Below are positions 11,603 through 37,773 of a stretch of 40,325 nt of DNA, one piece after another. The notes below the pieces were generated by a model. That model searched no databases. It had not been told where the DNA came from and saw only the letters and a list, made by a program, of their open reading frames with translations. A program made the position numbers and the translations under genes. The first letter of the stretch is position 1, and each line of letters starts with the position of its first letter. Origin of the DNA: Waddliaceae bacterium (GTDB lineage Bacteria; Chlamydiota; Chlamydiia; Chlamydiales; GCA-2709385); the NCBI GenBank assembly GCA_002709385.1, contig PAQS01000020.1, positions 1 through 40,325 of the forward strand, read 5' to 3'.

Positions 11603-11638
11603 AAAGCCCTTACTCTCAATTATGAAAGTAAGGGCTTT
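11603..11638 (-). terminator. Intrinsic terminator after the flagellin-like gene
   Basis: A perfect 12-bp stem AAAGCCCTTACT / AGTAAGGGCTTT (11603-11614 with 11627-11638) and a 12-base loop, followed on the reverse strand by a short T run. It lies 25 bases past the stop codon of the flagellin-like gene. Confidence 0.8.
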
Positions 11639-11662: not shown

Positions 11663-12400
11663 TTAATCACCTTTAGATAGTAAAGCGTGTATTTTTTCTT
11701 GTGTTTCAAATTTATGCAGTTCTTGAATTTTTTGAAGTGCATGCTCTGCACTCACTTGATCTGCAAGTCCGGAAAGCTCTGCAGCTGCCCGGTAGTCCTG
11801 AAGTGTCGCTCTACCCACACTAGATGAAGAAACTCCCACTTGAGTTCGCGCGTTATTTAATTCAGATTGTGCATCTTTAACCTGCTCTAAAGCTGCGTTA
11901 GAAGAACTTGGACTGCTAAGATCAAGTGTTCCCAAAGCTCCGGTAATATTTGAGCCATCGGGATCTTGAATTTCGACACTATTCTCTGTAGCAGCATTAA
12001 TGGAGTTACCTGAAAATAACTGCTGCCCGTTAAATTTTGTATTAGAAAAAATGTCGCTTAGCTCACCTTGTAAGGTTTCAGCTTCTTGTTGTAGAGCAGC
12101 TCGATCACTAGAATTGAGCTGACCATCTGTTGCACGAGTTGCAATTTCTCCTAAACGTCCTACAATATCGCTGGCATTATCAAGTGCTGCTGAAGCTACA
12201 GATTCCCGGGCTTGAGCAAGATGTCCATTTGTTGCATGAACCTCACTAATTCGAGCTTTATTTTCTAAGCGTTTTGCTGCCGAACTAGTTTCTGCGATTT
12301 TTGGACTCGTATTAGAGCGTGCCTGGCTAGCTGCTACACGAACCGTTTGCTGGGTTTGTTGTGTGAGTAAGGTGCGTATTGTACTATTAATATCTGACAT
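11663..12400 (-). CDS. Flagellin-like protein (FliC/FlgL family, short)
   Basis: A 245-residue protein with a flagellin core. Residues about 45-135 match the N-terminal D1 helices: LAQARESVASAALDN, VGRLGEIATRATDG, then the very typical FSNTKFNGQQLFSG. Residues about 165-245 fit the C-terminal D1 helix pair (ELNNARTQVGVSSSSVGRAT). The variable D2/D3 part is almost absent (about 35 residues). The canonical D0 opening INTN-x-x-S is not conserved; the first 40 residues are Gln/Ser/Thr-rich. It could be a minimal filament protein, a hook-filament junction-like protein or a secreted flagellin relative. AGGAG lies 6 bases before the ATG. A near-perfect sigma-54 promoter precedes the gene and a strong terminator follows, so it is a single-gene unit. 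Confidence 0.85.
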   Translation of the reverse strand: MSDINSTIRTLLTQQTQQTVRVAASQARSNTSPKIAETSSAAKRLENKARISEVHATNGHLAQARESVASAALDNASDIVGRLGEIATRATDGQLNSSDRAALQQEAETLQGELSDIFSNTKFNGQQLFSGNSINAATENSVEIQDPDGSNITGALGTLDLSSPSSSNAALEQVKDAQSELNNARTQVGVSSSSVGRATLQDYRAAAELSGLADQVSAEHALQKIQELHKFETQEKIHALLSKGD

Positions 12401-12433
12401 AATTGACTCCTGTGAATTATTTTAGCCTCATAC

Positions 12434-12449
12434 TGCAATCGTAATGCCA
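12434..12449 (-). promoter_or_regulatory. Sigma-54 (-24/-12) promoter of the flagellin-like gene
   Basis: The reverse strand reads TGGCATTACGATTGCA. The -12 element TTGCA is perfect, the -24 element TGGCA is perfect through its fifth base, and GG and GC are exactly 10 bases apart. Predicted transcription start is near 12424, 24 bases before the ATG at 12400. Confidence 0.85.
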
Positions 12450-12525: not shown

Positions 12526-13332
12526 TTATCCAAACCTATCTAGAGAACTAGCTATTCGATTTAATCCAAGAGTACTTGCTAGTCTTGTATTAAAACTTAT
12601 TTGTAAAACATTAGACGGTCCTGAAGAATCTGTGCGTGCAGATCTTCTTTCTTGTACTCGGCTAAAATTAATACTAGGATCTACAGTTCGACTACTACTT
12701 CTACTAGCTGATCGTCTTCGCCCAATGGTTGATAGGCGAGATAGGTTTCTACTTAGCTCAGGTTCCGAAGCTCGGAAAAGAGGATTCGTAGGCCTTGAAG
12801 AGGGACCAGGTGTTGTTGGAGGAGGTACCGGCGGAATTGTCGGCTCTGTTGGCTCTGTCGGGTCCGGTCTATCTGGTCTATCTGGTCTATCTGGTCTATC
12901 TGGTCTGTCTGGTCTGTCTGGTCTATTCGAACTGTTATTTTCATTATTTCTTTCAGAGCGATCAGACCTATCAGATCTATTAAATAAGCTTCTAATTACT
13001 GTGATAATTCCTTCACGTAAACGATTTCTTACACCATTCTCATCAGATTCATCTGCTCTATTACTTATTCCAGCTTCTTCTCTTGCTTGTTCAGCATTTT
13101 CAGAACGATTACTTGAATTATTTTCTCTTCTTCTTAGAGATGAAGTATCCTGTTCTCTTTCTTGATTTCTTGTTTCGAAATTAACATCAACTCGATCAGA
13201 ACGACTTTGGCTCTGTGTTTGAGGAAAAGAACTTCTTCTACTTACATTCGCTTCCTCAGACCTTGAGGAATTGTTTTCTTCTCTTGCGAGTGTACGTCTA
13301 CTTATACCGATAATATTTACTGGGCCTGACAT
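12526..13332 (-). CDS. Low-complexity Arg/Ser/Asp-rich repeat protein
   Basis: An unrecognised 268-residue protein with an extremely biased composition (Arg, Ser, Asn, Glu, Asp, Pro). A central polyampholyte tract repeats the tripeptide R-P-D about seven times, then T-E-P repeats, then a Pro/Thr-rich linker. The N-terminal third has many S-R and R-S-E clusters, and the protein is probably disordered throughout. The last 25 residues are more ordered and contain ISFNTRLASTLGLNRIASSL, which loosely resembles the flagellin D0 start pattern. There is no signal peptide. AAGGAA precedes the ATG at 13332, and a sigma-54-like -24 element lies upstream. It is immediately upstream of the flagellin-like gene on the same strand but probably separately transcribed. 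A secreted effector or surface protein is possible, but no function can be assigned. Confidence 0.7.
   Translation of the reverse strand: MSGPVNIIGISRRTLAREENNSSRSEEANVSRRSSFPQTQSQSRSDRVDVNFETRNQEREQDTSSLRRRENNSSNRSENAEQAREEAGISNRADESDENGVRNRLREGIITVIRSLFNRSDRSDRSERNNENNSSNRPDRPDRPDRPDRPDRPDRPDPTEPTEPTIPPVPPPTTPGPSSRPTNPLFRASEPELSRNLSRLSTIGRRRSASRSSSRTVDPSINFSRVQERRSARTDSSGPSNVLQISFNTRLASTLGLNRIASSLDRFG
12866..12924. repeat. 9-bp tandem repeat (about 6.5 copies)
   Basis: The unit GGTCTATCT is repeated head to tail from 12866, with the fifth and sixth copies reading GGTCTGTCT. It encodes the R-P-D tripeptides of the overlapping gene on the reverse strand. The unit length is a multiple of three, so copy-number changes by slippage would keep the frame. 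Confidence 0.9.
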
Positions 13333-13557: not shown

Positions 13558-14268
13558 TTACATGGCAAATGATTGTGTATCGCGTTTTCTTTGCATATTT
13601 TGAGGTGTTATTTTGTGTGCTACAGAGTGAATTTTATGTACAAATTTTCGTGTTTTCAGTGAAGAAATAGCTTCTAAATGATGCTCGTTAATCTCTTTAG
13701 AGAAATTACAGATATATTTCCTAACGTCAGTATTACCAGAAAGTTCTGCAACTTCTTCGTCTTGGATACGTATCATTGCTCTTTCCAAAAGATGAATTTG
13801 GCGAGAGCGGATATGTGCCGAGCTATCTTGTGCGTGAACAAAAAGACTTAAAAGCCTTTCTGCTAACAATGTTCTCTCTTTTACATGCATAAAAGTATTT
13901 TGATTCGAGTCGATACTCTGTTGTTCTATGTTTTGAGACCTATAAAAATCTCGTATTCGGTCTATAAATGTCCTGAGTCTTTCAATTCTTCTTAATGTTT
14001 TTGGTTGTTTAGATATTTCACGTTTTTGTAAGTAATGTTCAAAACGATGTATTTGCTTAAATAAACGCTCTTGTGCGTTTGATGCGTGTATCAGGTCATA
14101 ATATGTCTCACATTGTGAAGGAGGGTGAGGAATAGCTTCACCAATAGCTTCATTTAGTGAATGTAAAATTGTGCGTGGGTCAAGGACGAGGGATTGTTTT
14201 GTGATAGAAGCATCAGTATTTTTTGTATTTGTTTCTATACTGCCTTTGCATCTGTTCTGCTTTTTCAT
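13558..14268 (-). CDS. Hypothetical helical protein, sigma-54-controlled
   Basis: I do not recognise this 236-residue protein. It is hydrophilic, very basic and mostly helical, rich in Arg, His, Gln and Ile, with no signal peptide or membrane segment. Examples are RLRTFIDRIRDFYRSQ and HIRSRQIHLLERAMIRIQDE. The ATG at 14268 is preferred over a GTG one codon earlier, because GGAGG lies 6 bases upstream of the ATG. A near-consensus sigma-54 promoter sits about 40 bases upstream and a strong hairpin follows, so it is a one-gene unit. Its regulation links it to the flagellin-like gene. It could be a secreted protein or chaperone, but that is a guess. Confidence 0.7.
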   Translation of the reverse strand: MKKQNRCKGSIETNTKNTDASITKQSLVLDPRTILHSLNEAIGEAIPHPPSQCETYYDLIHASNAQERLFKQIHRFEHYLQKREISKQPKTLRRIERLRTFIDRIRDFYRSQNIEQQSIDSNQNTFMHVKERTLLAERLLSLFVHAQDSSAHIRSRQIHLLERAMIRIQDEEVAELSGNTDVRKYICNFSKEINEHHLEAISSLKTRKFVHKIHSVAHKITPQNMQRKRDTQSFAM

Positions 14269-14308
14269 CACCTGCCTCCTTCAACAAGTTTATTCTTGAG
14301 GTCGAAGG

Positions 14309-14324
14309 AGCAGTTTTGGTGCCA
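14309..14324 (-). promoter_or_regulatory. Sigma-54 (-24/-12) promoter
   Basis: The reverse strand reads TGGCACCAAAACTGCT. The -24 element is perfect, the -12 element is CTGCT (one mismatch to TTGCW), and GG-N10-GC spacing is exact. Predicted start is near 14299, about 31 bases before the ATG at 14268. It shares TGGCACCAA with the site at 5685-5700. Confidence 0.75.
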
Positions 14325-20121: not shown

Positions 20122-20183
20122 CTTGTCTATGTTATAGAAAAACCTAAGAAAGATTGCATGGAATACTAGGGGAGAAATACGTA

Positions 20184-21110
20184 ATGGATACAGAAGAAAC
20201 AAGTGTTCAGGAAGAAAGTACTACTGCCGAAGTAGCTGTGTATGACTTTCGTAATCCTAGTGTGTTGCAAAAAGAACAAACTAACACCATGCGGCTTATA
20301 CATGATACTTTTGCAAACACATGTTCAGGAGCTGTTTCTGCCGCGTTCGGAGCTGAATTTGAATTTAAGCTAACAGATTTAGAACAAAGAAATTTTGTTG
20401 ATTATATTAGCAGCATACCTAAGCCTACATGTATGGTTCTTTATGATATGCTTCCTTTACATGGAGTGGGAGTTTTACAAGTCAGTTCTAACCTAGTCTA
20501 TAATATTATTGATAAAATGTTAGGTGGAACAGGAAAGGGAATTAGTGTTGAAAGAGCTTTTACAGATATTGAAATGGCGATTGCAAAAAAAATTCTCGCT
20601 CTTTTCATCAAGCGCCTTAAAAGCGCTTGGGCCTATGTAATGGATTTATCTTTTGAAATACAAGAAATTCAAACAAATCCATCATTTGTCCGAGTGATCT
20701 CTCCTCGAGAGCTTTGTGTTATTGCTTCAATAGAAGTTTTTGTCGACGATATCAAAGGGTCTATGAGCATATGTATTCCTTATGTGAATCTAGAGCCTAT
20801 TGCTTCGCAACTTGGTAATGAAACGATTTCTCATAGACACAGCTACAAGCAAACACAAGAAATTAGACAAGTTCATGAAGAAAATTTTCGTGAAGTAGAT
20901 TTTTCTATTCAAGCAATTCTAGGAAGAAGTGAGTTAACACTAGAGCAGCTTCTCTTTCTATCTGAAGGTGATATGGTTAAACTCGATCAGAAAATTCGAG
21001 ATCCAATTGAGCTATCTGTCGGAGGGCTCCGTAAATATGTTGCTAGTCCAGGTCTACTAGGACGTTACAAGGGTGTTCAGGTTAAAGAGTTCTGTACGGA
21101 AGAAGAATAA
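20184..21110 (+). CDS. fliM: Flagellar motor switch protein FliM
   Basis: A C-ring/switch protein of 308 residues. After a short acidic N-terminus, YDFRNPSVLQKEQTNTMRLIHD matches the start of the FliM middle domain. The MLGGTGKG signature (Gly114-Gly117), AFTDIEMAIAKKIL and a final FliN/SpoA-type domain (about 235-305) with LGRSELTLEQLLFLSEGDMVKL follow in order. The N-terminal CheY-P binding peptide (consensus LSQ-x-EIDALL) is missing. Full FliM architecture makes a simple SctQ of the virulence type III system unlikely. The ATG at 20184 has GGGGAG about 9 bases upstream; an in-frame ATG at 20154 is less likely. It is followed by a coiled-coil gene and maf on the same strand. Confidence 0.88.
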   Translation: MDTEETSVQEESTTAEVAVYDFRNPSVLQKEQTNTMRLIHDTFANTCSGAVSAAFGAEFEFKLTDLEQRNFVDYISSIPKPTCMVLYDMLPLHGVGVLQVSSNLVYNIIDKMLGGTGKGISVERAFTDIEMAIAKKILALFIKRLKSAWAYVMDLSFEIQEIQTNPSFVRVISPRELCVIASIEVFVDDIKGSMSICIPYVNLEPIASQLGNETISHRHSYKQTQEIRQVHEENFREVDFSIQAILGRSELTLEQLLFLSEGDMVKLDQKIRDPIELSVGGLRKYVASPGLLGRYKGVQVKEFCTEEE

Positions 21111-21706: not shown

Positions 21707-23644
21707 GTGGATAAAGAAGCATTATTTAATAAAAATGTAGAACTATTATCTCGTATTATCCCCACGGTAGCTTTGCGTCTTCCGTATGTAGATAGTTCAG
21801 ATTGTGAGTTTTGTGAAAGCAAAGCAGGTGAAGCAAACATCATAAAACATAATGGAGAACAAAGTTTTTCTCTGCATTCGCAATACAATGCAAAAAAAGA
21901 AGCTGAGAAGTGGTTTCAATCTTTAGATCTTGCAGGAACACAAGTGCTCTATGTTTATGGAGTGGGCCTTGGGTATTATTATGATGCTGCTATTGAGTGG
22001 TTAAGAGGACAAAGAGACCGATATTTAATTTTTCTAGAAGATGATCTTTCTGTTCTTTGTCGTTTGATGGAAACAGAAAAAGGCACCGAAATCCTTGAAG
22101 ATAAACAAGTCCAAATTCATTATTTTCCTAGTATTGAAGATTCGGGAAATATGTTTCACTGGCTCTCTTGGTACTTCGTTCTATTGCCTTTAGATGTATC
22201 GGCAATCCGTTCTTATGAAAGTCAAAAAGCAGAGCAATTGCACGAATTGCGTTTGAAAATTATGCATGACAGCGTGGTAAATGATGCCATGGCTGGTGAA
22301 TATATGCGTCATAGTCAAACTTTTTTCCGAAATTTTTACTCAAATTTTCTCTTTTTAAGTGAGTCAGAGCACGGAAATAAGCTTTTTGGAAAGTTTAAGG
22401 GAGTTCCTGCAATCATCTGTGGTGCGGGACCTTCTCTCAACAAAAATGTCGATTTATTAGGAAAATTAGAGCAAAAAGCCCTTGTTTTCGCAGGGGGATC
22501 ATCACTGAATGCTGTAAGTGCGAAAGGAGTTTTACCTCATTTCGGCGCAGGAATTGATCCTAACCCACCTCAGTACGAAAGAATTATAAGTAACTCAGGA
22601 TTTGAGGTTCCGTTTTTCTATCGTAACCGTTTATTTCATGAAGCATTTCGAGCAATTCATGGTAAGCACCTTTATTTGAATGGTTGTGGAGGGTATCCCA
22701 TTGCTGAATGGTTTGAAGCAAAGTTGGGAATTAAGGGAGAGGTCATTTCAGAAGGACATAACGTTGTCAATTTTTGTGTAGAAATTGCACGAGCGTTGGG
22801 ATGTAGTCCGATTATTTTTGTTGGTATGGATTTAGCGTATTCGGGATTAGAAGCATACGCAAGTGGTGTTGTAGAAAATGTTAAAGTCCAAGAAGAAAAA
22901 ATTTTAAATAATGGAAATACAGATTCCAGTGCTTTTATTCGTCCTGATATCAACGGTAAGCCTGTCTATACTTTGTGGAAATGGGTACAAGAATCTGAAT
23001 GGATTGGAGCCTATACTGAAGAATATCCTGATGTGCAATTTATCAATGCTACTGAAGGTGGTTTAGGCTTTCCAGGTATACCAAATATGTCTTTGCAAGA
23101 AGTTGTAGATCAATACATGCCGCGTTGCCTTGATTTACGAGGACGTGTTGCTGCAGAAATCAATGACGCACATTTTGAACATATCGATTCAGCACGGACC
23201 ATGGAGTTGATGACCGAACTGCGAGATAGCCTTTTGCGCTCACAAAAACTCTGTGAAGATATTCTTCTAGAAATTGATGAAATGGAAAATAAAGTAAAAA
23301 AAGGAAAAACAGTTCCAGCATCACTTCAAACAGGGAAAAGCGTACTTTATGAAGCTGATCTCTTAGAAGAAGAAGCTTACCGGGTGATTTTAGAAAATAA
23401 CTCAGCAGTTTGTTCAAAAATTTTAGAACGACATAGCAACGAAATCAAGTATGACACATCTTTACGTTCAGATAGAGAGCGACAACTTGAGATACTCAAT
23501 GTAAATAGAGAAAAATTTCACTTTCTCCGTGATACAGCAGAGGCAAACCTACGGGCAATGAACCTAGCTGTACGAAATTATGAGCGCGCAGGACATGATG
23601 TAGGAAATTTTCTGGAACTTTCTCAGGAGGAAGCGAAAGTATGA
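21707..23644 (+). CDS. Motility-associated glycosyltransferase, Maf/DUF115 (MptE-like)
   Basis: A 645-residue protein of the Maf family, which transfers nonulosonic sugars such as pseudaminic acid to flagellin before export. The family core is clear: AIICGAGPSLNKNVDLL (about 235-252), PHFGAGIDPNPPQYERI, GHNVVNFCVEIARALGCSPI, then IFVGMDLAYSG. The C-terminal 170 residues are helical, as usual. The start is a GTG at 21707, with GAGGGG 6 bases upstream. The 3' end overlaps the next gene by 4 bases (ATGA). No sialic or pseudaminic acid biosynthesis genes are in the window. A flagellin-like gene does occur 9 kb away, which supports a role in flagellin modification. Confidence 0.88.
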   Translation: MDKEALFNKNVELLSRIIPTVALRLPYVDSSDCEFCESKAGEANIIKHNGEQSFSLHSQYNAKKEAEKWFQSLDLAGTQVLYVYGVGLGYYYDAAIEWLRGQRDRYLIFLEDDLSVLCRLMETEKGTEILEDKQVQIHYFPSIEDSGNMFHWLSWYFVLLPLDVSAIRSYESQKAEQLHELRLKIMHDSVVNDAMAGEYMRHSQTFFRNFYSNFLFLSESEHGNKLFGKFKGVPAIICGAGPSLNKNVDLLGKLEQKALVFAGGSSLNAVSAKGVLPHFGAGIDPNPPQYERIISNSGFEVPFFYRNRLFHEAFRAIHGKHLYLNGCGGYPIAEWFEAKLGIKGEVISEGHNVVNFCVEIARALGCSPIIFVGMDLAYSGLEAYASGVVENVKVQEEKILNNGNTDSSAFIRPDINGKPVYTLWKWVQESEWIGAYTEEYPDVQFINATEGGLGFPGIPNMSLQEVVDQYMPRCLDLRGRVAAEINDAHFEHIDSARTMELMTELRDSLLRSQKLCEDILLEIDEMENKVKKGKTVPASLQTGKSVLYEADLLEEEAYRVILENNSAVCSKILERHSNEIKYDTSLRSDRERQLEILNVNREKFHFLRDTAEANLRAMNLAVRNYERAGHDVGNFLELSQEEAKV

Positions 23645-25252: not shown

Positions 25253-25693
25253 ATGCCTGTACACGGACAAGTTCGAAGAGGACAGGGCCTATACGGAGCC
25301 CATGGAAAACCTCCATCTGTTTCACATAATCATAGCTATGTAGCTCCTCGACGTACGCATATTGGTGCTACCCCTAGGAATATATTTGTTCATCCTAAAA
25401 CAAGTAAAAAAGTAGTACACCACTATCATCGACCAAGTTTTTTCCAGCGTCTATTTTCTCCAAACCGTCCAACAACAGTATTGAACTCTTCAAGATGTAG
25501 ATTTTTGTCAAGTCCAGGAAGTATAGCTACAGCCGTAGGAGCAGCAGCAATGCTGGTTTTAGGCACAAGTATGATCGTAGCAGGGTGCTTGACTATGCCT
25601 GTACCATTTATCGGTATTCCTCTGATTGTAGGAGGCGGGGTTCTTGCTATTATAGCTTCCGCAGCTCTACCTAGTAGGTATTTAGTGGTTTAG
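25253..25693 (+). CDS. Hypothetical membrane protein with basic N-terminus
   Basis: A 146-residue protein starting MPVHGQVRRGQG. The first 90 residues are basic and His-rich (HGKPPSVSHNHSY, VVHHYHRPSFFQRLF). The last 50 residues form two hydrophobic segments rich in Gly, Ala, Val and Ile, separated by a Pro-containing turn. The layout resembles chlamydial inclusion-membrane-type proteins only in having a bilobed hydrophobic part, so no such call is made. GGAG lies 7 bases before the ATG at 25253 and 4 before an ATG at 25250. Its last 12 bases overlap the convergent flhG gene. It probably shares a transcript with the Tyr/Asp-rich gene. Confidence 0.65.
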   Translation: MPVHGQVRRGQGLYGAHGKPPSVSHNHSYVAPRRTHIGATPRNIFVHPKTSKKVVHHYHRPSFFQRLFSPNRPTTVLNSSRCRFLSSPGSIATAVGAAAMLVLGTSMIVAGCLTMPVPFIGIPLIVGGGVLAIIASAALPSRYLVV

Positions 25694-26758
25694 AGAAGAA
25701 TTATTTACAAACTTACTTCGGTCAATTTCTCTTTGAATGCGACGTTGAGTTAGTAAATTTTGTGCGTAATCTTTTTTTGCATGGGACAAAACACGATTCA
25801 ATTGATCTTCAAAACTTTCGTTGTTTTGTCCTTTCAACATTTTTTGTGCTACTTGGTTAAAAATTTGAATAGAGATCCTTTGTAGAACCTGGCTTGTGAT
25901 TGAATCAGGTAAGTGTACACTGATAGGACTCATCTTAAAAATACTTGCTGAAACTTCTTCATTATGAAAAATTATTCCAGAATAATTGAGTTTTAGGTGT
26001 AGGTATCGTTGGCAGATTTCCTGTAGTTTAGATCCTAATCGCGCATTTTCAGCATTTCTTGCTTGGTTGAAGACAACATAGAAATCCAAGCTATTACAAA
26101 GCTCTTGAATTTGTTCAGCAATCCAAGGTTCTTTCTTTCCAATTACCTTGATAAGGTCATCGATGCTTGCAATATCGTAAGTGTTCTGGGGAACGGTTGA
26201 GGCTTTTATGATTTCAAGAATTTCATCTTGATTGCGAAACATGCGAAATAGTACGCGATAAACCACATTTTTCAAAAATTCATAAGCATTAACAATAGCT
26301 GTAGGTTCAGGGCTTGTTACAATAATACTTGCATGGCTCATGGAAAAAAAGTCGATTACGTTATAAGAGCTGCCGGCACCTAAATCAAGAAGTACGAGGT
26401 CGGCATCCAGTTGGCGAATATGCCTTACAAGTTTGACCTTTTGAAAATACTTTAGATTTGCTAATTCAGGGACAAAACCGCTTCCAGGAACGATTTGGAG
26501 ATTTTTTATGTTCGTATCAAGTACATAATCACTAAGATGGGTTTTGGGGCTTGTAAAATAGTTTCCTAAGCCAGCTTTAGGCTGACGGATACCAAAAATG
26601 GTATGAATATTTGCAGCACCGAAATCTAAATCAAGCAAGATGACTTTTAGGCCAGCCTGAGCGTATTGTACTGCAAGGTTGGCACTGACCATAGATTTAC
26701 CAACTCCGCCCTTTCCTCCTCCAATAGAGAAGATAATCGGCTCTTTTTCTTGTGTCAT
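25682..26758 (-). CDS. flhG: MinD-like ATPase, FlhG family
   Basis: A ParA/MinD-type ATPase of 358 residues. The deviant Walker A is GGGKGGVGKSMVSANLA (Lys16-Ser22). A switch I region follows (LLDLDFGAANIHTIFG), with DLVLLDLGAGSSYNVIDFF as Walker B. FlhG places and numbers flagella, often with FlhF, and tunes the NtrC-type flagellar activator in polar flagellates. No membrane-targeting helix of the MinD type is obvious. The last 60 residues are helical and basic. Its ATG directly follows the ctcC stop codon (TAG-ATG), with AGGAGA inside the ctcC end, so the two are translationally coupled. A MinD-like role cannot be excluded, but length, divergence and coupling to a sigma-54 activator favour FlhG. 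Confidence 0.75.
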   Translation of the reverse strand: MTQEKEPIIFSIGGGKGGVGKSMVSANLAVQYAQAGLKVILLDLDFGAANIHTIFGIRQPKAGLGNYFTSPKTHLSDYVLDTNIKNLQIVPGSGFVPELANLKYFQKVKLVRHIRQLDADLVLLDLGAGSSYNVIDFFSMSHASIIVTSPEPTAIVNAYEFLKNVVYRVLFRMFRNQDEILEIIKASTVPQNTYDIASIDDLIKVIGKKEPWIAEQIQELCNSLDFYVVFNQARNAENARLGSKLQEICQRYLHLKLNYSGIIFHNEEVSASIFKMSPISVHLPDSITSQVLQRISIQIFNQVAQKMLKGQNNESFEDQLNRVLSHAKKDYAQNLLTQRRIQREIDRSKFVNNSSLNH

Positions 26759-28162
26759 CTACGTCTCCTTTTTCACAGTACCGTTGTATTCATGCAGCTT
26801 ATTACGTAAGGTTCGAATAGAAATACCTAAGACTTCAGCTGTACGAGTTCGATTATCATTTTGTGACTGTAGTGTTTCAATAATGAGCCGTTTTTCAAGC
26901 TCAGCTAGAGACATACCCACAAGAGGTTTAAGTCCGCCTTCGCCAGAAGGAGAATCTATAGTGGTAGCTTGTTCTGTTATTCCATTACTATTGTTTAAGT
27001 AAAGATGTTCTGCTTCAATCAATGTACTTTGATCCATTACAACTGTGCGTTCGATAATATTCGCTAATTCACGAATGTTTCCTGGCCAAGGATAATGAAG
27101 AAGAAGATGCTTAGCTGATTCAGAAAGTTTTTTTTGTTCTTTGTGGTTATCAATACACATCTGGTGGAGAAAGTATTCGGCAAGAGGAACGATATCATCT
27201 CGTCGATCTCTAAGAGGAGGTAAGTGAAAAGGAACAACATTCAAACGATAATAAAGATCTTCTCTGAATACTTTTTCTTCGATAGCTTCAAGCATATCGC
27301 GATTGGAAGTGGATATAAGTCGAACATCAACTTTGATCAATTTACTGCCACCTACGCGCTCTAATTCTTTTTCTTGAATTACCCGAAGTAGCTTGGCTTG
27401 TAGACTAAGAGGTACCTCTGTAATTTCATCAAGCAGTAAGCTTCCACCATGTGCAAGCTCAAAGCGTCCAAGACGACGCTGAGCAGCACCGGTAAAAGCT
27501 CCTTTTTCATGCCCGAAAAACTCCGATTCAATCAAAGTTTCAGGAACAGCAGCACAGTTAACTCGGATGTAAGGACGTTTCGCTCTTGGTGAAGCAAAGT
27601 GAATGGTATGTGCAATAACTTCTTTTCCTGTACCTGATTCACCACAAATAAAAACACTAGCTTGACTCTTTGCAACTTGTTGGGCTTCAGCTAATATTTT
27701 TTTCATACAAGCACTTTCACCTACAACTCGTTGAATCCCTCTCGAGTTTCCATGGTTTACTTGTTGTCGTAAGTACTGATTTTCTTCTACAAGAGAGCTA
27801 TGTTCTTGAGCTTTTGCAATAATGGCTTCGATTGTATCGGGAGAAAAAGGCTTAATTAAATATGTGAAAGCCCCAAGACGCATGGCTTCTACAGAGTTTT
27901 CAATACTTCCAAAAGCAGTGACAACAATAACAATAGTAGATGGAGATAATTTTTTTACTTTCTTCAAAACATCAATACCAGTCATTCCTGGCATTTTCAT
28001 GTCAGTAATCACCAAATCGAACTGCTTTTCTTTTAAGAGTTCTACCGCTTTTTCTCCACAGTCAGCCATGCTTACATCAAAATCTTTGCGCAGGAGAGTT
28101 TCATTGAGAAAGTTACGGATAAGCATTTCATCGTCAACAATGAGAATTTTTTCTATAGCCAT
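26759..28162 (-). CDS. ctcC: Sigma-54-dependent response regulator (CtcC/AtoC type)
   Basis: An NtrC-class activator of 467 residues. It has an N-terminal receiver (Asp10-Asp11, phospho-acceptor Asp54, Lys104), an AAA+ domain with Walker A GESGTGKE (174-181), the sigma-54 contact loop GAFTGA (221-226), LLLDEI as Walker B and the R-finger region. The C-terminal Fis-type helix-turn-helix is TRTAEVLGISIRTLRNKLHEY-like (near 440-462, described by its pattern). From memory, the C. trachomatis CtcC is about 80 residues shorter and lacks this DNA-binding end, so this version is complete. AGGAG lies 8 bases upstream; it sits 11 bases after ctcB and is coupled to flhG. It is the likely activator of the -24/-12 promoters in the window. 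Confidence 0.93.
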   Translation of the reverse strand: MAIEKILIVDDEMLIRNFLNETLLRKDFDVSMADCGEKAVELLKEKQFDLVITDMKMPGMTGIDVLKKVKKLSPSTIVIVVTAFGSIENSVEAMRLGAFTYLIKPFSPDTIEAIIAKAQEHSSLVEENQYLRQQVNHGNSRGIQRVVGESACMKKILAEAQQVAKSQASVFICGESGTGKEVIAHTIHFASPRAKRPYIRVNCAAVPETLIESEFFGHEKGAFTGAAQRRLGRFELAHGGSLLLDEITEVPLSLQAKLLRVIQEKELERVGGSKLIKVDVRLISTSNRDMLEAIEEKVFREDLYYRLNVVPFHLPPLRDRRDDIVPLAEYFLHQMCIDNHKEQKKLSESAKHLLLHYPWPGNIRELANIIERTVVMDQSTLIEAEHLYLNNSNGITEQATTIDSPSGEGGLKPLVGMSLAELEKRLIIETLQSQNDNRTRTAEVLGISIRTLRNKLHEYNGTVKKET

Positions 28163-28173
28163 CCAGTACTCTC

Positions 28174-29436
28174 CTAGTTTGTACAGGGATAAAAAGGGAT
28201 TTTAATTTGAAAACGAGTGCCTCTATCAACTTCAGAGTCAACACTTACTTCACCGCCATGTGCTTGTGCAGCTTTGTAGACCTCCGATAAACCAAATCCA
28301 TTGCCGTTATGTCTTGTCGTGAAAAAGGGAGAAAAGATTTTTTCCAGGTTTTCAGGTGGAATACCACAACCATGATCTTCAACTTCTAAAAGAACCCAAT
28401 CTTTTTGACGAACTTGGCGGAGAGTAACAATGTTTCCTTTTTCACTAGCGTGAACGGCATTGACAATGAGGTTAAGAAGAGCTGCACGAATAAGGGAAGC
28501 ATCAATACTAATCCTTAGCTCAGGATCATGTATTTCAACATTGAGTTTCACTTTTTCATTGAGTTCGTGATCAGCACGAATCATCTGAGCTGTATCTTCG
28601 ATGAGGGTTCTAATATTTAGCTCTTCGATTTGCATTTGATAGGGACGAGCATAGTGCAGTACATTACTTACTAATCGATCAAGAACCTCAGCCCCACTAA
28701 CAATGTATTTGGCCATATTTTGAAGGTGACTCTCATCTTCTAAATCTCGTACCAAAAGGGAAGCAAAACCCCGAATACCCCCTAGAGGATTCCGAATTTC
28801 ATGAGCTACCGATGCAGCCATTTCTCCCAATTCCTGCATACGGTCACCTTGTCGAGATAAATTCTGTAAACGGCGAATCTCTGTCATATCATGAATTAAA
28901 ATAATCAGTCCGTTATGGCAGTGATCAGTTTCTTCTACAAAAGAAGTGGACACAGATAATTCACGACGATGATTTTTAAGAGTTACGTAAGAAATATAAG
29001 AATGCTGAAGTGGTTTTAGATTTTTTAAAGCTTCAGATACCGAAAAACCAAAAACATTATCACCAAGAGCGTCAATATAAGAGCAACCAAGTACGTCTTC
29101 TTTTCTTAATTCGAGAATTTTTTCAGCAGAATGATTAAACGTAGTAATGATGCCTTCACTATCTACAAAAATAATCCCCTGAAGAATATTGCCTAATATA
29201 TCGTTGAGATAGGCTGTTGTGCGATGCAATTCATCTACTTTTTCTTCTAGTTGAGCATTTGTATCCTTAAGGCGAGTATTCACTTCTTTAAATTGTCTCT
29301 GTAAATCTCGATAAGAGTGCTCTAAACGATTGGTTTCTATAGAGAAACGTTCAAAAGCTTCTGCCAATGTTTTATAGTTAAGGGCAGGAGTTTGTTCAGA
29401 TTCAGAATGACTATTTTGAAGTAATTTTTCAGTCAT
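28174..29436 (-). CDS. ctcB: Sensor histidine kinase (CtcB/AtoS type)
   Basis: A cytosolic two-component kinase of 420 residues without membrane segments. It has an N-terminal coiled coil (about 25-75), a PAS domain (about 78-190, with [21 protein letters not shown]), a dimerisation/phospho-acceptor helix [12 protein letters not shown] (His212), and an ATPase domain with N box [12 protein letters not shown]1 EDHGCGIPP and F/G2 [13 protein letters not shown]. It phosphorylates the adjacent CtcC; in Chlamydia CtcB autophosphorylates and activates CtcC. The signal is unknown and presumably cytosolic. No clear ribosome binding site was seen, but a 7-bp inverted repeat surrounds the leader. Gene order ctcB-ctcC-flhG suggests one operon. 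Confidence 0.92.
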
Positions 29437-31284: not shown

Positions 31285-34200
31285 TTATATGCTTAGTTCT
31301 TTTAGCATCTGCCGAGCTTGCAATCTCGTTGATACGATAAAGGTGTTATTACCTTCTAAATCAGCTAGCTCTTGTAAGATACTGCGAGCTTCTTTTCCTA
31401 ACTTTTCTGATGCAAGTTCCATAGATTTTTGTTCATCAGCATCTTCTAAAAACAAACTATCGTTAAGCATGTTTTCTGAAATACGGGTAAGAGCTTTTGC
31501 TAGGCTAAGTTTTGCGCGGTACTTGCTGTCACCGTCAGCCATAACAAAGTATTGCGTTTGTTCCTCTCGAAGAAGATAACGAAAATATGTTTCAGCTTTG
31601 GTCCAGTCGTGGCGAAACTCAGCAGTTTGTGCAGCCAATCCTATCATTTGCCAGATGGTATCTGGGTGTACGATACGATTGATATTGGCTTCCATTTTTT
31701 CGAGGTAAGAATCCACAATTTCTAAAATTTCTTGGTAGCTTTGATAGCGATCTACATGCGAAAGAAGAGAAACGCGATAAAGGTCTACTTCTTCTAAAAT
31801 CCCAGCATGGGGACTAACCTTGATAAAAAGATCATCCATCCCTGTTTCACGCATTTCCCACTCTAACCAGTATAGTAGTTCTTTGTTGAAATTGACTAAA
31901 TACTCAGGTTCAACCTGTATTGAGAGAATACTCTCAAGATAGTTAGGACTTGCTATAAACTGTTGTTTTTCTTTTTCCTTTATAGGAATTCTCATAACGT
32001 AGGCGAGTGCAAAGTCTCCCAATAGTTTATCTTCAAGACTCCCTCTACTGAAAATTTGTTGGAACTTACCAATAAGTTTTTCGGGAGCATATTGGCGCAT
32101 TTCAAGAAAAATAGAGCGAATACGTTGTAAGGTATCGTAACGTAAAACTTTTTGGCGCCCCGCTGCACGATCAATATCTCGTTGAATTTGAATACGTTCT
32201 TTTTCTATTAGTTCTGGTAATTTCATCGACTCAGCTTGATGAAATAGAGCAAGTTCTGCAGCCAATAAAGCGTATTTTTCTTCCTGCTTCTCATTTTCTT
32301 CTAGGATAGAATCGATTTCTTTAATAATTTCTTCTGTATTAGGAGTTTCTCCAGAATCATTTTGAACGTAAAGTTTATGTCGATAATCAGCAAAACTATC
32401 GAAAAGAAGAGCAAGAGATCGTGTTTTGAGTTGGCCCCACTTGGATTCCAACAAGTGTAAATTCCGATAGTCTAAATACTCTCTTCTTTCAAGACCGCGT
32501 AGAAGCCGGTCTTCTTTCCAAGGGATTAAACGAAATAGTATCTCTGCGTTTGCAAAGTATTCTTGAGCTTCCGAATATTTTCTAAGAAGAAGTAGAGAAT
32601 CTGCAATTTCATAGTTAGCTTGGGCAAGTGGACGAATACTATCTCTAAAATCACTTTCTAATTTAAGCATCCCTATTTCGTTTTGAAGATAGAGCTCTTT
32701 ACCGGTAAATATTTCTTCAGGAGCAATTTTGAATACTTTTTTGAAAACGCTAATGCTATCCGTAATATTTCCTATTTTACGCTTTACTATTCCAAGGTCT
32801 ATGGTTAGCTGAGGATAGAAAAAAGGCGCATTTTTGATGTTTTGTTCCTCTTTATCTTTTTCGTTTTCTATTTCACTTAAAACAACGTGAGCAAGCATCC
32901 ATTGTTTATTATCCATTAGAGTATTTGCATAAGCGATTTTAGAATGAATGAGAGTAGCAAAGTCACTGGCATGAGTTTGAGCCTTTAGGAAAGCTGTTGA
33001 AGCCGCATTGTAATCGCGATTAGCAAGATGTACCTTTCCAATTTCAAACTGTAAGTAGGCGTATCCTGGATCTAATTCACCTGGAAGATCACTACGTTCT
33101 GTAAGGTCTTCTTGCTTAAACGATCCACCATCATGGCCTGGATCAGGTAGAATAGCTATAAGGTCATTTCGAGCTTGTAATGTTTTTCCTAGGCTTGTAT
33201 GCAAACGTGCTCTTTGTAGATATGCAGCATTTCTATATGGAGAATAATATTGAGTTGTAATGAGTTGGCTGAAGTAGGAAATTGCTTTGTTAGCAAAGCG
33301 TTCACTATCTTTTCGTTTTTGTGCTTCATCTTTATTGAAGTTACTGATTGTGTTTCTACTGCTATTTAGAGCTGCTGTAGCCAAAGCTTGGTAAGAGCGT
33401 CCCATACGATAAAGAACTTCGTGGGCAAGAGGCTTTGTTGCAAGAAGAGAAGAGAACACTTTATATGTAGGACTATTTGAAGGAAATTCATCTAGAAGCA
33501 TAGGTTGCGTTAAATCGTCTACACTTACTCTATTGTATTTTAAATCCTTATCTGGAACTCCGCGAACATGTTCAGAAATAATACTTCTGTAATATGAGAT
33601 AGCCTGTTGGTGTTCATTTTGTAGATTAGAAATGATTCCTAAATACACTCTAGCATCATCAATAAGCCCTACAGGATAGCGTTGACGATAAGGAAATTCT
33701 TGTGATCCCATTCTTGTTTCAGTCAAATATGCACTATTTTCATTATTTCCATAAGTGTAAGGAAGAGAAAAATCTAAAAAACCTAAAAACGCACTGGTTG
33801 CAAGATCAAGCTCTACTCTAGCTTGTTTATTATCTTCAGCTTTCATATTAAGTGTTCTGATATACCGTAAGGCTCTTTGTGTATGAATTTCTCCACTGAT
33901 ATAGCGAGATTTTGCTAGAAAAATCTTTATATCTTCAATTTCATGACGATTTTGAAAATTTGATGTTTGGGTTGTGGCTTCCTCGCGATCTAAAAGGGTG
34001 TATTTTGGAAGATCCTGTTTAAAAATCTGTAAAGCAGTGCGTTCTAGATGGTTGATCCATGAATGAAAATTAGCTGAATTTTGGTCTGCTTTTCTTTTAT
34101 CTCCAAACATACTGTCAGAGTAAATAAATTCTGTATCGTATTCTTTATAGATCGGTTTTCCAACTTTTTCTTCTTCAGATAAAGTAATAGGATCTATTGT

Positions 34201-37200
34201 TTGTTGTCCTGTAAGAACATCAAAGTGCTTTGTTTTACTTTGCTCGTAGTAGGTCTGTCCAATCCACCATAAGGCTTTAGCTTTATAGTAATACTCTTTT
34301 AGTTTCTTTCGATAGAGGCTTTCAATATGATCGATTTTATTTTTTTGCGTAGCAATGATGTTATCGATACTATCTAGATCATCCATACTAAATTTAGTAA
34401 GAACTCGGCGTACATTTTGCACAGACTTTAGCATTTGACCAGATGCTTTTTTAAGCTCTTCATCCATAGCGAGCATTTGCTCATTGATTGCGTAAAGCTG
34501 TTTTTCACGTTGTTCTTGGGCTGGAGCAAGTTCTTTTCGAAATTTCTGCGCCTTTTCTAGGTTAGATTCGTACTGTCTTGCTAGTGCTTGCAATGTTTGG
34601 TCGACTTTAGAAAGCTCTTCACTAAGATGTCTCAGATATTGCTCAAGATCACTAATTCTAAGAACTAAAGTATCTAAATTCGTTTGATTTTGGGATTTAA
34701 TTGCAAGTAAACGCTCTTGATCAAGAACCTCTTTTTCTTGGAAAGCACGTTTAATTTGATCAACAAGATCTTTTCGTTTTTCAAAGACATTTTGATACTC
34801 ATTTATGCTTAAGCCCATATCTTGTTCTAGCTGGTAGATATCGACAGTATCGAGATGGTATCCTCGAGTAACACCGCTAATACCAGTAGATTCAAACTTT
34901 GCATCGAGGTTTTTTTCTAAGTTTTCAAGGTTCCTTTGTCCTAATCGCAACCTATTTTGTGCTCGAATCAAATTTTTCATGTACCGTTGTAGGTTATTTG
35001 ATTGAAGCTCACTAAGTTCTTCTGAACTAGCCAGAGAAGCAGATATCAGTTGTAGCTGTTTAAGAATATGCTGCTCATTTACTTGAATATCCTCTTGTAA
35101 ATCCTTTCTTTCCCATACCCAGTTATACTTCTTCATGTATTCTTGTTGTTTTACAATAAAGTTTTGCAATTGGGTAATAGGACTTTCATAGTCTTTATCA
35201 TCAACAGGTTGGTAAAAAATATCAGAAGAATAAATATTCAAGCGTTCTTGAGTAGCCTGCTCTTTTTGTAATAAGATACTTAGCTGTGCATGTTCTTGAG
35301 CAATTTCTTGGTTAAGCCTAGCTATTTCTTCTTTTAAAAGTTCAGCTTGTTGATTTTCACTAGGTTGACGTAAAAGTAAAGATTTACGACGTTCTGTTTT
35401 TTCGTAGAGAGTACCAGGAACACTATTAGAGCCAATAATTTGCAGTATTTTTCTTTGAATTTCTCCTAGTTCGTTTTGCGTTTCTAAAGCCCGTTTTTCA
35501 GCTTTAGCAAGCTCAGCAATAACTGCGTGAATAGGATGAATAAATTCATCTAGTTTCTTGATCGCCGCATACTGTCTGTCCTGCAACATGCCTATTTGCA
35601 TTTCTACAGACTCTCGCTCATCTCCTGAGAGGGTTTCAAGCTTTTCAGTAAGAGTATCAATATCTCCCTTTAAGATTTTACTGCTTTCGTGAAGTTCTTG
35701 AAGTTCTAAATTCTCATTTTTTTCTTTCAGTACTTCGAGTAAAGTGAGGTAGTGTGTTTGGAGCCTTAAGTGTTCTTTTAGCTCTTGAATTGTTGGTCCT
35801 TCTATGTTGACTATTCGATTTTCTTGCTCAGAAATACCATTTTGTAAAAGTTCTAACTGTTCACTGATTTGAGTTTTTTGTTGAACAAGATAGCCTCCTA
35901 GACGCTGAATTTTTGTTTGAACAGAAGAAAGTAGTCTTTCAAATTCTCTAATTTTTAAATTACTTTGAGTTTGTTTATTTCTAATGTGTTCCTCTCGTTC
36001 TTGGACTCTTGTAATTTTCTCAATATCAATTGATCGCTCACGCTCGAGCTGCTTGATATCTCCTTGTATTGAGTGAAGTGTTGCTCTTTGTGTGTTGTAC
36101 TCATGAGTATATTGCTTCACTTTTTCTCGGTACTGACTTGCCATAAACAACAAATGTTGATGTAACTCTTTTATCGTTGCTGGAGATCTTCCTGTGTTAA
36201 TCTCATCGATTCTTTGGTGAATTCTTTCTATTTCGTTTTTAGCGAGATCAGGTAATTGAAGAATTTCTTCGTAATATTCTATAAGATTACTTTCTTGTTT
36301 TGGAGGGAGTTGATTGTGGATACGCGTTCCGTCTGACAAAACAAATTGTTGTGAAAATACTTCAGGAAAAGTTGTATCTAAAATATCTCGATTAATAAAA
36401 GCAGACTCTTCATCACTCAAAGCTGTTAATTCGCTTTTGTTTAGAAGAACTTGTGCTCTATCGTGTAGATGTTCGTTATCGATTTCTATTTTTTGGAAGA
36501 AACCTTTCTGAGAAATAATTGAATTAAGTGCAGCAATAGTATCTTTCTTTATTTTTTCTGAGATATCTTGCTTATTCTCTCTTGAAATCCATGCTCGAGT
36601 TTGTACAGGCAATTTTTCCCAAACAGCTTTTTGTATCGAATTCGATGGATAGCGTGCATAGGCAGTGAATAAGTCACGAAGAGCATTCCAACTAATATTT
36701 TTATCTTCGATAGCGAAAAGAGGGAAATGAGGTAAAGCCAATGGAGCGGTAATGGCTTCTTCAATGACAATAAGGTCTTTTTCTAAAGACTCAATATTTT
36801 TTTGTTGTTTTGACTGTACACTTAATCTAGAACTTGATGAATAAATACTACTTGTACTGTTGGGAGTATAGTACATACGAGTGAGATAAGACCGAGCAAG
36901 ACGATAGTTTTTTTCTTGAAAAGCTGTTTCTGATAGAGCCTCTAAGCACTGCGCATATTCTTCCCACATAGGACCCATATCTTTCGTTTTTTTCCCCTGA
37001 AAAAAGCGACCATTTCGGGTATATCCTTCTACATACTTTCTTCCTATTTCGAAGCATCGTTTAGCTTTTCCTAAATCATCATGATAGCGAAACCACTTTC
37101 CCATTAAGAGAGCAGGTTTTACGATAGAGTAAGATTCTATCTCTTTCAGAGCCTCAATACTTGCTTCTAATTCTTGTATTTCAACAGGGTCAGGTTTTGT

Positions 37201-37773
37201 TTGAGACTTTTCTTTTCGAATTTTTTCTCTAAACCATGCTTTTTGTAAGAGGGGAATTTGCTTGATCAAATTATTAGAAAAGTACTCAAGTTCTTGAGAA
37301 CCTATAGCATCCATTTGTTCATCAAAGAAAGCTTGATCCATTTCATATTCAAAACGTAAGCCTCCTTCTAGTTCTAATCTAAGAAGGCCTTCAAGAGCAA
37401 AAATAAGAGAAAGATTCCGTTCTGGAATATAAGGAGCTTCTGGAATATTGGTAAGACGCAGAGAAGTCTTACCAATTTCACCCATCATAACTACTGCTTT
37501 ACGAAGTTCTTGGGAAGTAGCGGGCATTGTTTGAATGGAACGTGAATGTTCTTTAAATAAGAGGCTTATATATTCATAGTCAGCAAGTTTTTCTTGTAGT
37601 TTTTCTTCTTCTGTTTGTGTAACAAACATAAAAGTCCAACTGACAGCAAAGATAATAAATACACAAAAGCTACCAGCACCAATCCATAAGCGATTTCGCC
37701 TTGACTGGTCTTCATCGATGATTTCTCCGTACAAAATTTCAGTATCTTCGGAAGAATTGGGCTTTTTTGCCAT
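31285..37773 (-). CDS. Giant membrane-anchored coiled-coil/TPR protein (2162 residues)
   Basis: The largest gene of the window. The N-terminus is cytosolic (about 28 residues, ending with RRNR), followed by one membrane helix (IGAGSFCVFIIFAVSWTFMF, about 31-50), so the rest is probably periplasmic. Residues about 540-1150 are long coiled coils (examples: QLERERSIDIEKITRVQERE, LEKNLDAKFESTG). The C-terminal half carries repeated helix pairs of the TPR/SEL1 kind (YSPYRNAAYLQRARLHTSLG, PGYAYLQFEIGKVHLANRDY, SFRDSIRPLAQANYEIADSL). The length and architecture suggest a scaffold that spans the periplasm. It belongs to no family I can name. AAGGACC lies 10 bases before the ATG, and the FlgN-like gene follows at 9 bases. 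A LysM lipoprotein gene lies upstream on the same strand. Confidence 0.8.
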   Translation of the reverse strand: MAKKPNSSEDTEILYGEIIDEDQSRRNRLWIGAGSFCVFIIFAVSWTFMFVTQTEEEKLQEKLADYEYISLLFKEHSRSIQTMPATSQELRKAVVMMGEIGKTSLRLTNIPEAPYIPERNLSLIFALEGLLRLELEGGLRFEYEMDQAFFDEQMDAIGSQELEYFSNNLIKQIPLLQKAWFREKIRKEKSQTKPDPVEIQELEASIEALKEIESYSIVKPALLMGKWFRYHDDLGKAKRCFEIGRKYVEGYTRNGRFFQGKKTKDMGPMWEEYAQCLEALSETAFQEKNYRLARSYLTRMYYTPNSTSSIYSSSSRLSVQSKQQKNIESLEKDLIVIEEAITAPLALPHFPLFAIEDKNISWNALRDLFTAYARYPSNSIQKAVWEKLPVQTRAWISRENKQDISEKIKKDTIAALNSIISQKGFFQKIEIDNEHLHDRAQVLLNKSELTALSDEESAFINRDILDTTFPEVFSQQFVLSDGTRIHNQLPPKQESNLIEYYEEILQLPDLAKNEIERIHQRIDEINTGRSPATIKELHQHLLFMASQYREKVKQYTHEYNTQRATLHSIQGDIKQLERERSIDIEKITRVQEREEHIRNKQTQSNLKIREFERLLSSVQTKIQRLGGYLVQQKTQISEQLELLQNGISEQENRIVNIEGPTIQELKEHLRLQTHYLTLLEVLKEKNENLELQELHESSKILKGDIDTLTEKLETLSGDERESVEMQIGMLQDRQYAAIKKLDEFIHPIHAVIAELAKAEKRALETQNELGEIQRKILQIIGSNSVPGTLYEKTERRKSLLLRQPSENQQAELLKEEIARLNQEIAQEHAQLSILLQKEQATQERLNIYSSDIFYQPVDDKDYESPITQLQNFIVKQQEYMKKYNWVWERKDLQEDIQVNEQHILKQLQLISASLASSEELSELQSNNLQRYMKNLIRAQNRLRLGQRNLENLEKNLDAKFESTGISGVTRGYHLDTVDIYQLEQDMGLSINEYQNVFEKRKDLVDQIKRAFQEKEVLDQERLLAIKSQNQTNLDTLVLRISDLEQYLRHLSEELSKVDQTLQALARQYESNLEKAQKFRKELAPAQEQREKQLYAINEQMLAMDEELKKASGQMLKSVQNVRRVLTKFSMDDLDSIDNIIATQKNKIDHIESLYRKKLKEYYYKAKALWWIGQTYYEQSKTKHFDVLTGQQTIDPITLSEEEKVGKPIYKEYDTEFIYSDSMFGDKRKADQNSANFHSWINHLERTALQIFKQDLPKYTLLDREEATTQTSNFQNRHEIEDIKIFLAKSRYISGEIHTQRALRYIRTLNMKAEDNKQARVELDLATSAFLGFLDFSLPYTYGNNENSAYLTETRMGSQEFPYRQRYPVGLIDDARVYLGIISNLQNEHQQAISYYRSIISEHVRGVPDKDLKYNRVSVDDLTQPMLLDEFPSNSPTYKVFSSLLATKPLAHEVLYRMGRSYQALATAALNSSRNTISNFNKDEAQKRKDSERFANKAISYFSQLITTQYYSPYRNAAYLQRARLHTSLGKTLQARNDLIAILPDPGHDGGSFKQEDLTERSDLPGELDPGYAYLQFEIGKVHLANRDYNAASTAFLKAQTHASDFATLIHSKIAYANTLMDNKQWMLAHVVLSEIENEKDKEEQNIKNAPFFYPQLTIDLGIVKRKIGNITDSISVFKKVFKIAPEEIFTGKELYLQNEIGMLKLESDFRDSIRPLAQANYEIADSLLLLRKYSEAQEYFANAEILFRLIPWKEDRLLRGLERREYLDYRNLHLLESKWGQLKTRSLALLFDSFADYRHKLYVQNDSGETPNTEEIIKEIDSILEENEKQEEKYALLAAELALFHQAESMKLPELIEKERIQIQRDIDRAAGRQKVLRYDTLQRIRSIFLEMRQYAPEKLIGKFQQIFSRGSLEDKLLGDFALAYVMRIPIKEKEKQQFIASPNYLESILSIQVEPEYLVNFNKELLYWLEWEMRETGMDDLFIKVSPHAGILEEVDLYRVSLLSHVDRYQSYQEILEIVDSYLEKMEANINRIVHPDTIWQMIGLAAQTAEFRHDWTKAETYFRYLLREEQTQYFVMADGDSKYRAKLSLAKALTRISENMLNDSLFLEDADEQKSMELASEKLGKEARSILQELADLEGNNTFIVSTRLQARQMLKELSI

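Follow-up and report, generated by a model that had tools for sequence, protein, structure and literature searches.

A probable sigma-54-class flagellin-family gene that may encode a non-filament flagellar accessory in a chlamydial genome

A gene for a 245-aa flagellin-family protein was located in a 40,325-nt stretch of chlamydial DNA (the window). It was read as a middle-class (sigma-54) gene of a complete flagellar hierarchy, encoding a D0-degenerate, HP1076-like, non-filament accessory of the rod/hook stage (probability about 0.5). The evidence consists of homology, a promoter motif and its conservation, the set of flagellar operons and the loss of D0 motifs, all of it drawn from sequence. 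Features of the window are collected in Table 1.

Table 1. Features of the window relevant to the flagellin-like gene and its predicted control
Feature	Coordinates	Strand	Basis
Hairpin and short T-run 3' of the stop codon, probable terminator	11603..11638	-	16-bp stem, -24.5 kcal/mol, z -7.7
D0-degenerate flagellin-family CDS, 245 aa, ATG start	11663..12400	-	Flagellin_N match; clade with G061 ortholog
Ribosome-binding site AGGAG	12407..12411	-	Read from sequence
Predicted transcription start, 12 nt downstream of the GC at -12	12423..12424	-	Inferred from promoter geometry
Sigma-54 (-24/-12) promoter TGGCATTACGATTGCA, probable	12434..12449	-	10/12 consensus bases, GG-N10-GC
One of the genome's two FliM proteins	20154..21110	+	PF02154 E 6e-51; TIGR01397 over cut-off
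MinD/FlhG-like ATPase directly after ctcC	25682..26758	-	Pfam CbiA/ParA; same place in G043 and G062
CtcC (receiver, sigma-54 AAA+, Fis HTH), probable activator	26759..28162	-	Pfam; phylum-wide ortholog
CtcB, PAS histidine kinase	28174..29436	-	Pfam; adjoins ctcC in other chlamydiae

The window is the whole of one contig from a 3.15-Mb Chlamydiota genome, G000 (97% complete, 0.4% contamination); G043, G061 and G062 are other Chlamydiota genomes with which it was compared. The flagellin-like gene sits between pheT and recO, and contamination was considered unlikely in view of these neighbors, the presence of ctcBC on the same contig and the completeness and contamination values of the genome. 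G000 carries flgF, flgG, flgA, flgH, flgI, flgJ, flgN, flgK, flgL, fliW, flhB, flhA and flhF, together with fliK, flgD, flgE, motA, motB, fliL, fliM, fliN, flgB and flgC (some of these names being ORF readings without a family score), and, FlgL and the flagellin-like protein aside, it encodes seven filament-type flagellins. The first-pass annotation had set the gene against classical Chlamydia, which have no flagellin; it does not stand alone in an otherwise typical Chlamydia, however, and belongs to a genome with a full flagellar set. In having a complete flagellar apparatus this uncultured member of the Chlamydiota is like the marine chlamydiae, whose flagellar apparatus Collingro reportedly described in 2017. 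Flagellins were found in 3 of the 234 Chlamydiota genomes searched, from three different families, and FliM was found in the same three. Single-cell genomes of marine origin had revealed flagellated chlamydiae before, and reconstructions portray the ancestor of the chlamydiae as motile (PMC8242063, PMC9816063). The other fliM of G000, on contig C14, adjoins fliL and fliN, and G043 and G061 have one FliM each. A 2162-aa ORF elsewhere in the window (31285-37773) gave weak TPR matches only.

The 245-aa protein matched the Flagellin_N profile (PF00669) at E 3.5e-11 and 43.8 bits against a Pfam cut-off of 26.6, across residues 36-132 (profile positions 41-137, with the first 40 profile positions uncovered). 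Flagellin_C (PF00700) gave no match to the protein in Pfam, and seven other G000 genes passed that cut-off. The flagellin D1 signature reported in the first-pass annotation was thus upheld by the N-terminal of the two models with which it had proposed to search, and not by the C-terminal one. Solved structures retrieved by sequence were flagellins and hook-associated proteins, and D1 is the sole part of the protein recognizable by sequence as flagellin. All 15 filament flagellins examined had an N-terminal spoke motif, [LIM][SA][STV]G, and 14 of them a C-terminal DxDxA-type motif; neither was found in the window protein or in its ortholog from G061. Because the D0/spoke motifs are missing while the D1 core is kept, the protein was read as D0-degenerate, its canonical D0/spoke ends having been lost. 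A flagellin relative is therefore encoded in this chlamydial genome, as had been claimed, but one that lacks D0/spoke features and is probably not a main filament flagellin.

A tree was built from 22 flagellin-family proteins of the three flagellated genomes (G000, G043 and G061). In it, the window protein and the G061 ortholog, which comes from another family and keeps a full ORF at 28% identity, formed one clade (support 99/98), distinct from both FlgL and the filament flagellins. These are the only two confident orthologs; a third candidate, G043_like257, fell outside the clade on a long branch, was without a sigma-54 box and was rejected. Identity as FlgL was also rejected, given the separate FlgL in the genome, a TIGR02550 score of 36.8 bits against a cut-off of 127.2 and the placement of FlgLs in their own clade. 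No named relatives of the protein were found among GTDB contigs, and the type of flagellin appears to be new. The window protein had no Pfam match to PF16522 (FliS_cochap). The G061 ortholog matched this profile weakly (E 0.0037, 17.6 bits, far under the cut-off of 43.2, so that family membership is not claimed), a weak pointer toward an HP1076-like role. The C-terminus of the G061 ortholog, VLSLLGLQ, resembles a flagellin end; a needle-like C-terminus, considered for the G061 and G043 proteins, was dropped as unsupported among solved structures. A single-sequence AlphaFold model of the window protein was weak (pLDDT 60), and its best structural matches, which were flagellins, are only supportive.

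The first-pass annotation had described a near-perfect sigma-54 promoter upstream of the gene. The box, TGGCATTACGATTGCA, was confirmed 34-49 bases 5' of the ATG with GG-N10-GC spacing, and the description is a fair one, 10 of the 12 specified consensus bases being present; the TGGCA/TTGCW context, the distance to the start codon and a box at the orthologous gene in G061, TGGCAACAAAGTTGCA, agree with this assignment. When the 100 bp upstream were dinucleotide-shuffled 5000 times, nine of the shuffles scored as high as TGGCATTACGATTGCA. The pattern TGGCAYN5TTGCW was found once in the window versus 0.08 expected (chance matches of the sigma-54 pattern being expected at 0.08-0.13 per window), and the pattern TGGCAYN5YTGCW was found 25 times in the whole of G000 versus 4 times for a reversed control pattern. 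The strongest evidence is context: the box is probably real because the G061 ortholog and three other flagellar operons of the genome also carry boxes. Downstream, a 16-bp hairpin and short T-run suggest that the gene is transcribed alone, probably as a single-gene transcript; this hairpin was not among the calls of a simple terminator scan.

The three other flagellar boxes of G000 precede flgF (TGGCATCACTCCTGCT), flgB (TGGCACGGCACCTGCT) and the fliK-flgD-flgE-motAB-fliLMN operon (TGGCAAGACTCTTGCA), each 33-34 nt before the start codon as for the flagellin-like gene, so that four flagellar units of the genome have a sigma-54 box. The flgB call is just under the Pfam cut-off (20.3 vs 20.7 bits), and flgC- and fliE-like genes come after it. 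Boxes were also present at flgF in G061 (TGGCACGTCTTTCGCA) and at flgB in G043 (TGGCATTCCCTTTGCT), and RpoN is encoded in single copy in each of the three flagellated genomes. A common activator site upstream of the four boxes was not found, the only match being low-complexity and T/C-rich. CCGATA, the core of the sigma-28 -10 element, occurred within 200 bp upstream of 5 of the 7 filament flagellins (background 0.027 per 200 bp) and was absent upstream of the flagellin-like gene; a FliA/WhiG sigma factor is encoded in G000. A sigma-54-to-sigma-28 cascade, as these motifs suggest, appears to be new for flagellated chlamydiae.

Further sigma-54-like boxes were noted apart from the flagellar units. 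In the window, a 237-aa ORF (13558-14271, minus strand) lying two genes 5' of the flagellin-like gene has the box TGGCACCAAAACTGCT (14309-14324, minus strand) 37 nt before its start; the ORF between these two genes (12526-13332) is of low complexity with RPD repeats and had no Pfam match. Two near-identical boxes, TGGCATCTATTTTGCT and TGGCATCTATCTTGCT (G000:C40:28760 and 29514; L082/L083/L091), lie on the same strand 754 bp apart, with two similar small ORFs on the opposite strand. Another box (L065, G000:C3:25436-25451), 66 nt before the gene of a FapA-domain protein, marks a further possible target.

Control of the gene by CtcB/CtcC and sigma-54 had also been proposed in the first-pass annotation. 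Orthologs of both regulators are encoded in the window, and with them a link between sigma-54 and motility follows; as activator of the flagellar sigma-54 promoters CtcC is likely, though not the only candidate. The window CtcC combines receiver and sigma-54 AAA+ domains, corresponds by best match to the one activator present in other chlamydiae, adjoins ctcB and is about 56-67% identical to the orthologs of the nearest genomes, of which there is as a rule one per genome. CtcC matches in several families end near residue 390, and the window CtcC extends into a Fis-type HTH. In the flagellated G043, CtcC was the sole NtrC-type activator detected and flgB has its sigma-54 box, which is the best indirect evidence that CtcC may drive flagellar genes. 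G000 encodes a second NtrC-type regulator, an orphan on contig C39 with 44% identity, and this makes the activator in G000 uncertain. In the portions available, the CtcC/sigma-54 papers draw no link to the flagellar genes of flagellated chlamydiae, and one of them treats flagellar and membrane functions as a general sigma-54 theme.

The MinD-like ATPase adjoins ctcC, not flhF, and its nearest relatives outside the phylum are mostly not near flagellar genes; its only named within-phylum relative among GTDB contigs belongs to 'Chlamydiae bacterium OFTM21'. G062 (L173, G062:C8) has ctcB-ctcC and the MinD-like ATPase (58% identity) but neither flagellin nor FliM, so the link between this operon and flagella is not a strict one. 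An MptE/Maf-like protein (PF01973) encoded at 21707-23644 of the window has weak similarity to the flagellin modification protein PseD, and in both G043 and G062 an apparently similar gene comes after ctcC and the MinD-like gene.

In the mechanism proposed here, CtcB would phosphorylate CtcC, the most likely NtrC-type activator, and the activator in its active state would enable sigma-54 RNA polymerase to start the flagellin-like gene at about 12424. The same step would switch on the rod (flgB, flgF) and hook/motor (fliK-flgD-flgE-motAB-fliLMN) operons, and the filament flagellins would follow later via sigma-28. The product would be an accessory made at the rod/hook stage, docking on the export chaperone FliS as HP1076 does. 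Promoter activity, CtcC as the activator, the timing and the role of the protein are what we infer in this scheme, the role being its least certain step.

The arrangement in G000 looks like the rod/hook program of polar flagellates (FlgSR, FlrBC, FleSR), with a kinase-regulator pair, sigma-54 boxes on rod and hook operons, a sigma-28 motif before filament genes and FlhF present; it differs in that the pair, here a putative regulator, is the chlamydial CtcB/CtcC. Kinase-regulator pairs acting with sigma-54 activate the rod/hook genes of C. jejuni, V. cholerae and P. aeruginosa, a step coupled to export-apparatus assembly (PMC7064773). HP1076 of Helicobacter pylori is RpoN-dependent and D1-like and competes with flagellin for the chaperone FliS; the purified protein did not polymerize and a null mutant had no motility defect (PMC7248283). 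Like HP1076, the window protein is short, flagellin-D1-like and of the sigma-54 class beside a full flagellar system; unlike it, it has 245 aa rather than 171 and is recognizable as flagellin by sequence, without a PF16522 match. Helicobacter also has FlaB, an RpoN-dependent minor flagellin with D0 (PMC7248283). The window protein is similar to FlaB in family and sigma-54 class, the main filament flagellins being of the sigma-28 class, whereas FlaB keeps its D0 domain and the window protein has neither D0/spoke motifs nor a Flagellin_C match. It is because the D0 motifs are lost that an HP1076-like role was favored over a FlaB-like one.

A FlaB-like role is nonetheless a real, if doubtful, possibility: the protein could be exported early and lie at the filament base, next to the hook, as a minor flagellin or junction subunit in which only the D0 sequence has diverged. 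Its sigma-54 class, shared with the rod/hook operons, would suit such a subunit, as would its length (245 aa, near the 266-268 aa of flagellins of the same genome), the helical ends in the weak AlphaFold model and the flagellin-like end of the G061 ortholog. Set against these are the absence of spoke/D0 motifs and Flagellin_C from both orthologs, when all filament flagellins of these genomes keep the N-terminal motif, and the existence of a separate FlgL. Counting against the proposed scheme are the VLSLLGLQ terminus in G061, which suits a structural role, the PF16522 results for the two orthologs, G043 with no confident ortholog, the lack of a shared activator site and the second NtrC-type regulator.

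Degenerate D0 ends would also fit a flagellin-like protein secreted by a flagellar or non-flagellar type III path and acting away from the filament, at the host cell for instance, and PMC7482065 describes the C. trachomatis sigma-54 regulon as rich in type III secretion-associated genes. This role is unlikely, since the gene was confidently found only in flagellated genomes and has the promoter class and spacing common to the flagellar operons. The same degeneration, with chance pattern matches at the rate given above, could mark a decaying flagellin paralog of no present function behind a fortuitous box, which is very improbable: the ORF is intact, with a ribosome-binding site and hairpin terminator, and the G061 ortholog, 28% identical and from another family, has likewise retained a full ORF and a box. 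The reading as a D0-degenerate, HP1076-like accessory was retained, and it would add to the flagellin family a member that no longer seems to belong to the filament, in parallel to Helicobacter HP1076.

In Chlamydia trachomatis, CtcC and sigma-54 have been linked to the change into the infectious form. The late-gene system of this species shares orthologous CtcC and CtcB and sigma-54 promoters with G000; it differs in having no flagellins and, according to PMC7482065, a CtcC without the DNA-binding domain, whereas in the window CtcC carries a Fis HTH and in G000 the boxes stand on flagellar genes. It is quite conceivable, though somewhat short of probable, that CtcB/CtcC-sigma-54 was originally an FlgSR-type flagellar system for the rod/hook genes and the flagellin-like protein, that it outlived the flagellum as a system for secretion and membrane genes, and that the DNA-binding domain was lost in Chlamydia. 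Since flagellated relatives have CtcB/CtcC with an intact DNA-binding domain together with sigma-54 boxes on rod, hook and flagellin-like genes, the late-development switch may originally have served as a checkpoint in flagellar assembly. If this is true, the signal predicted for CtcB would be an assembled export apparatus.
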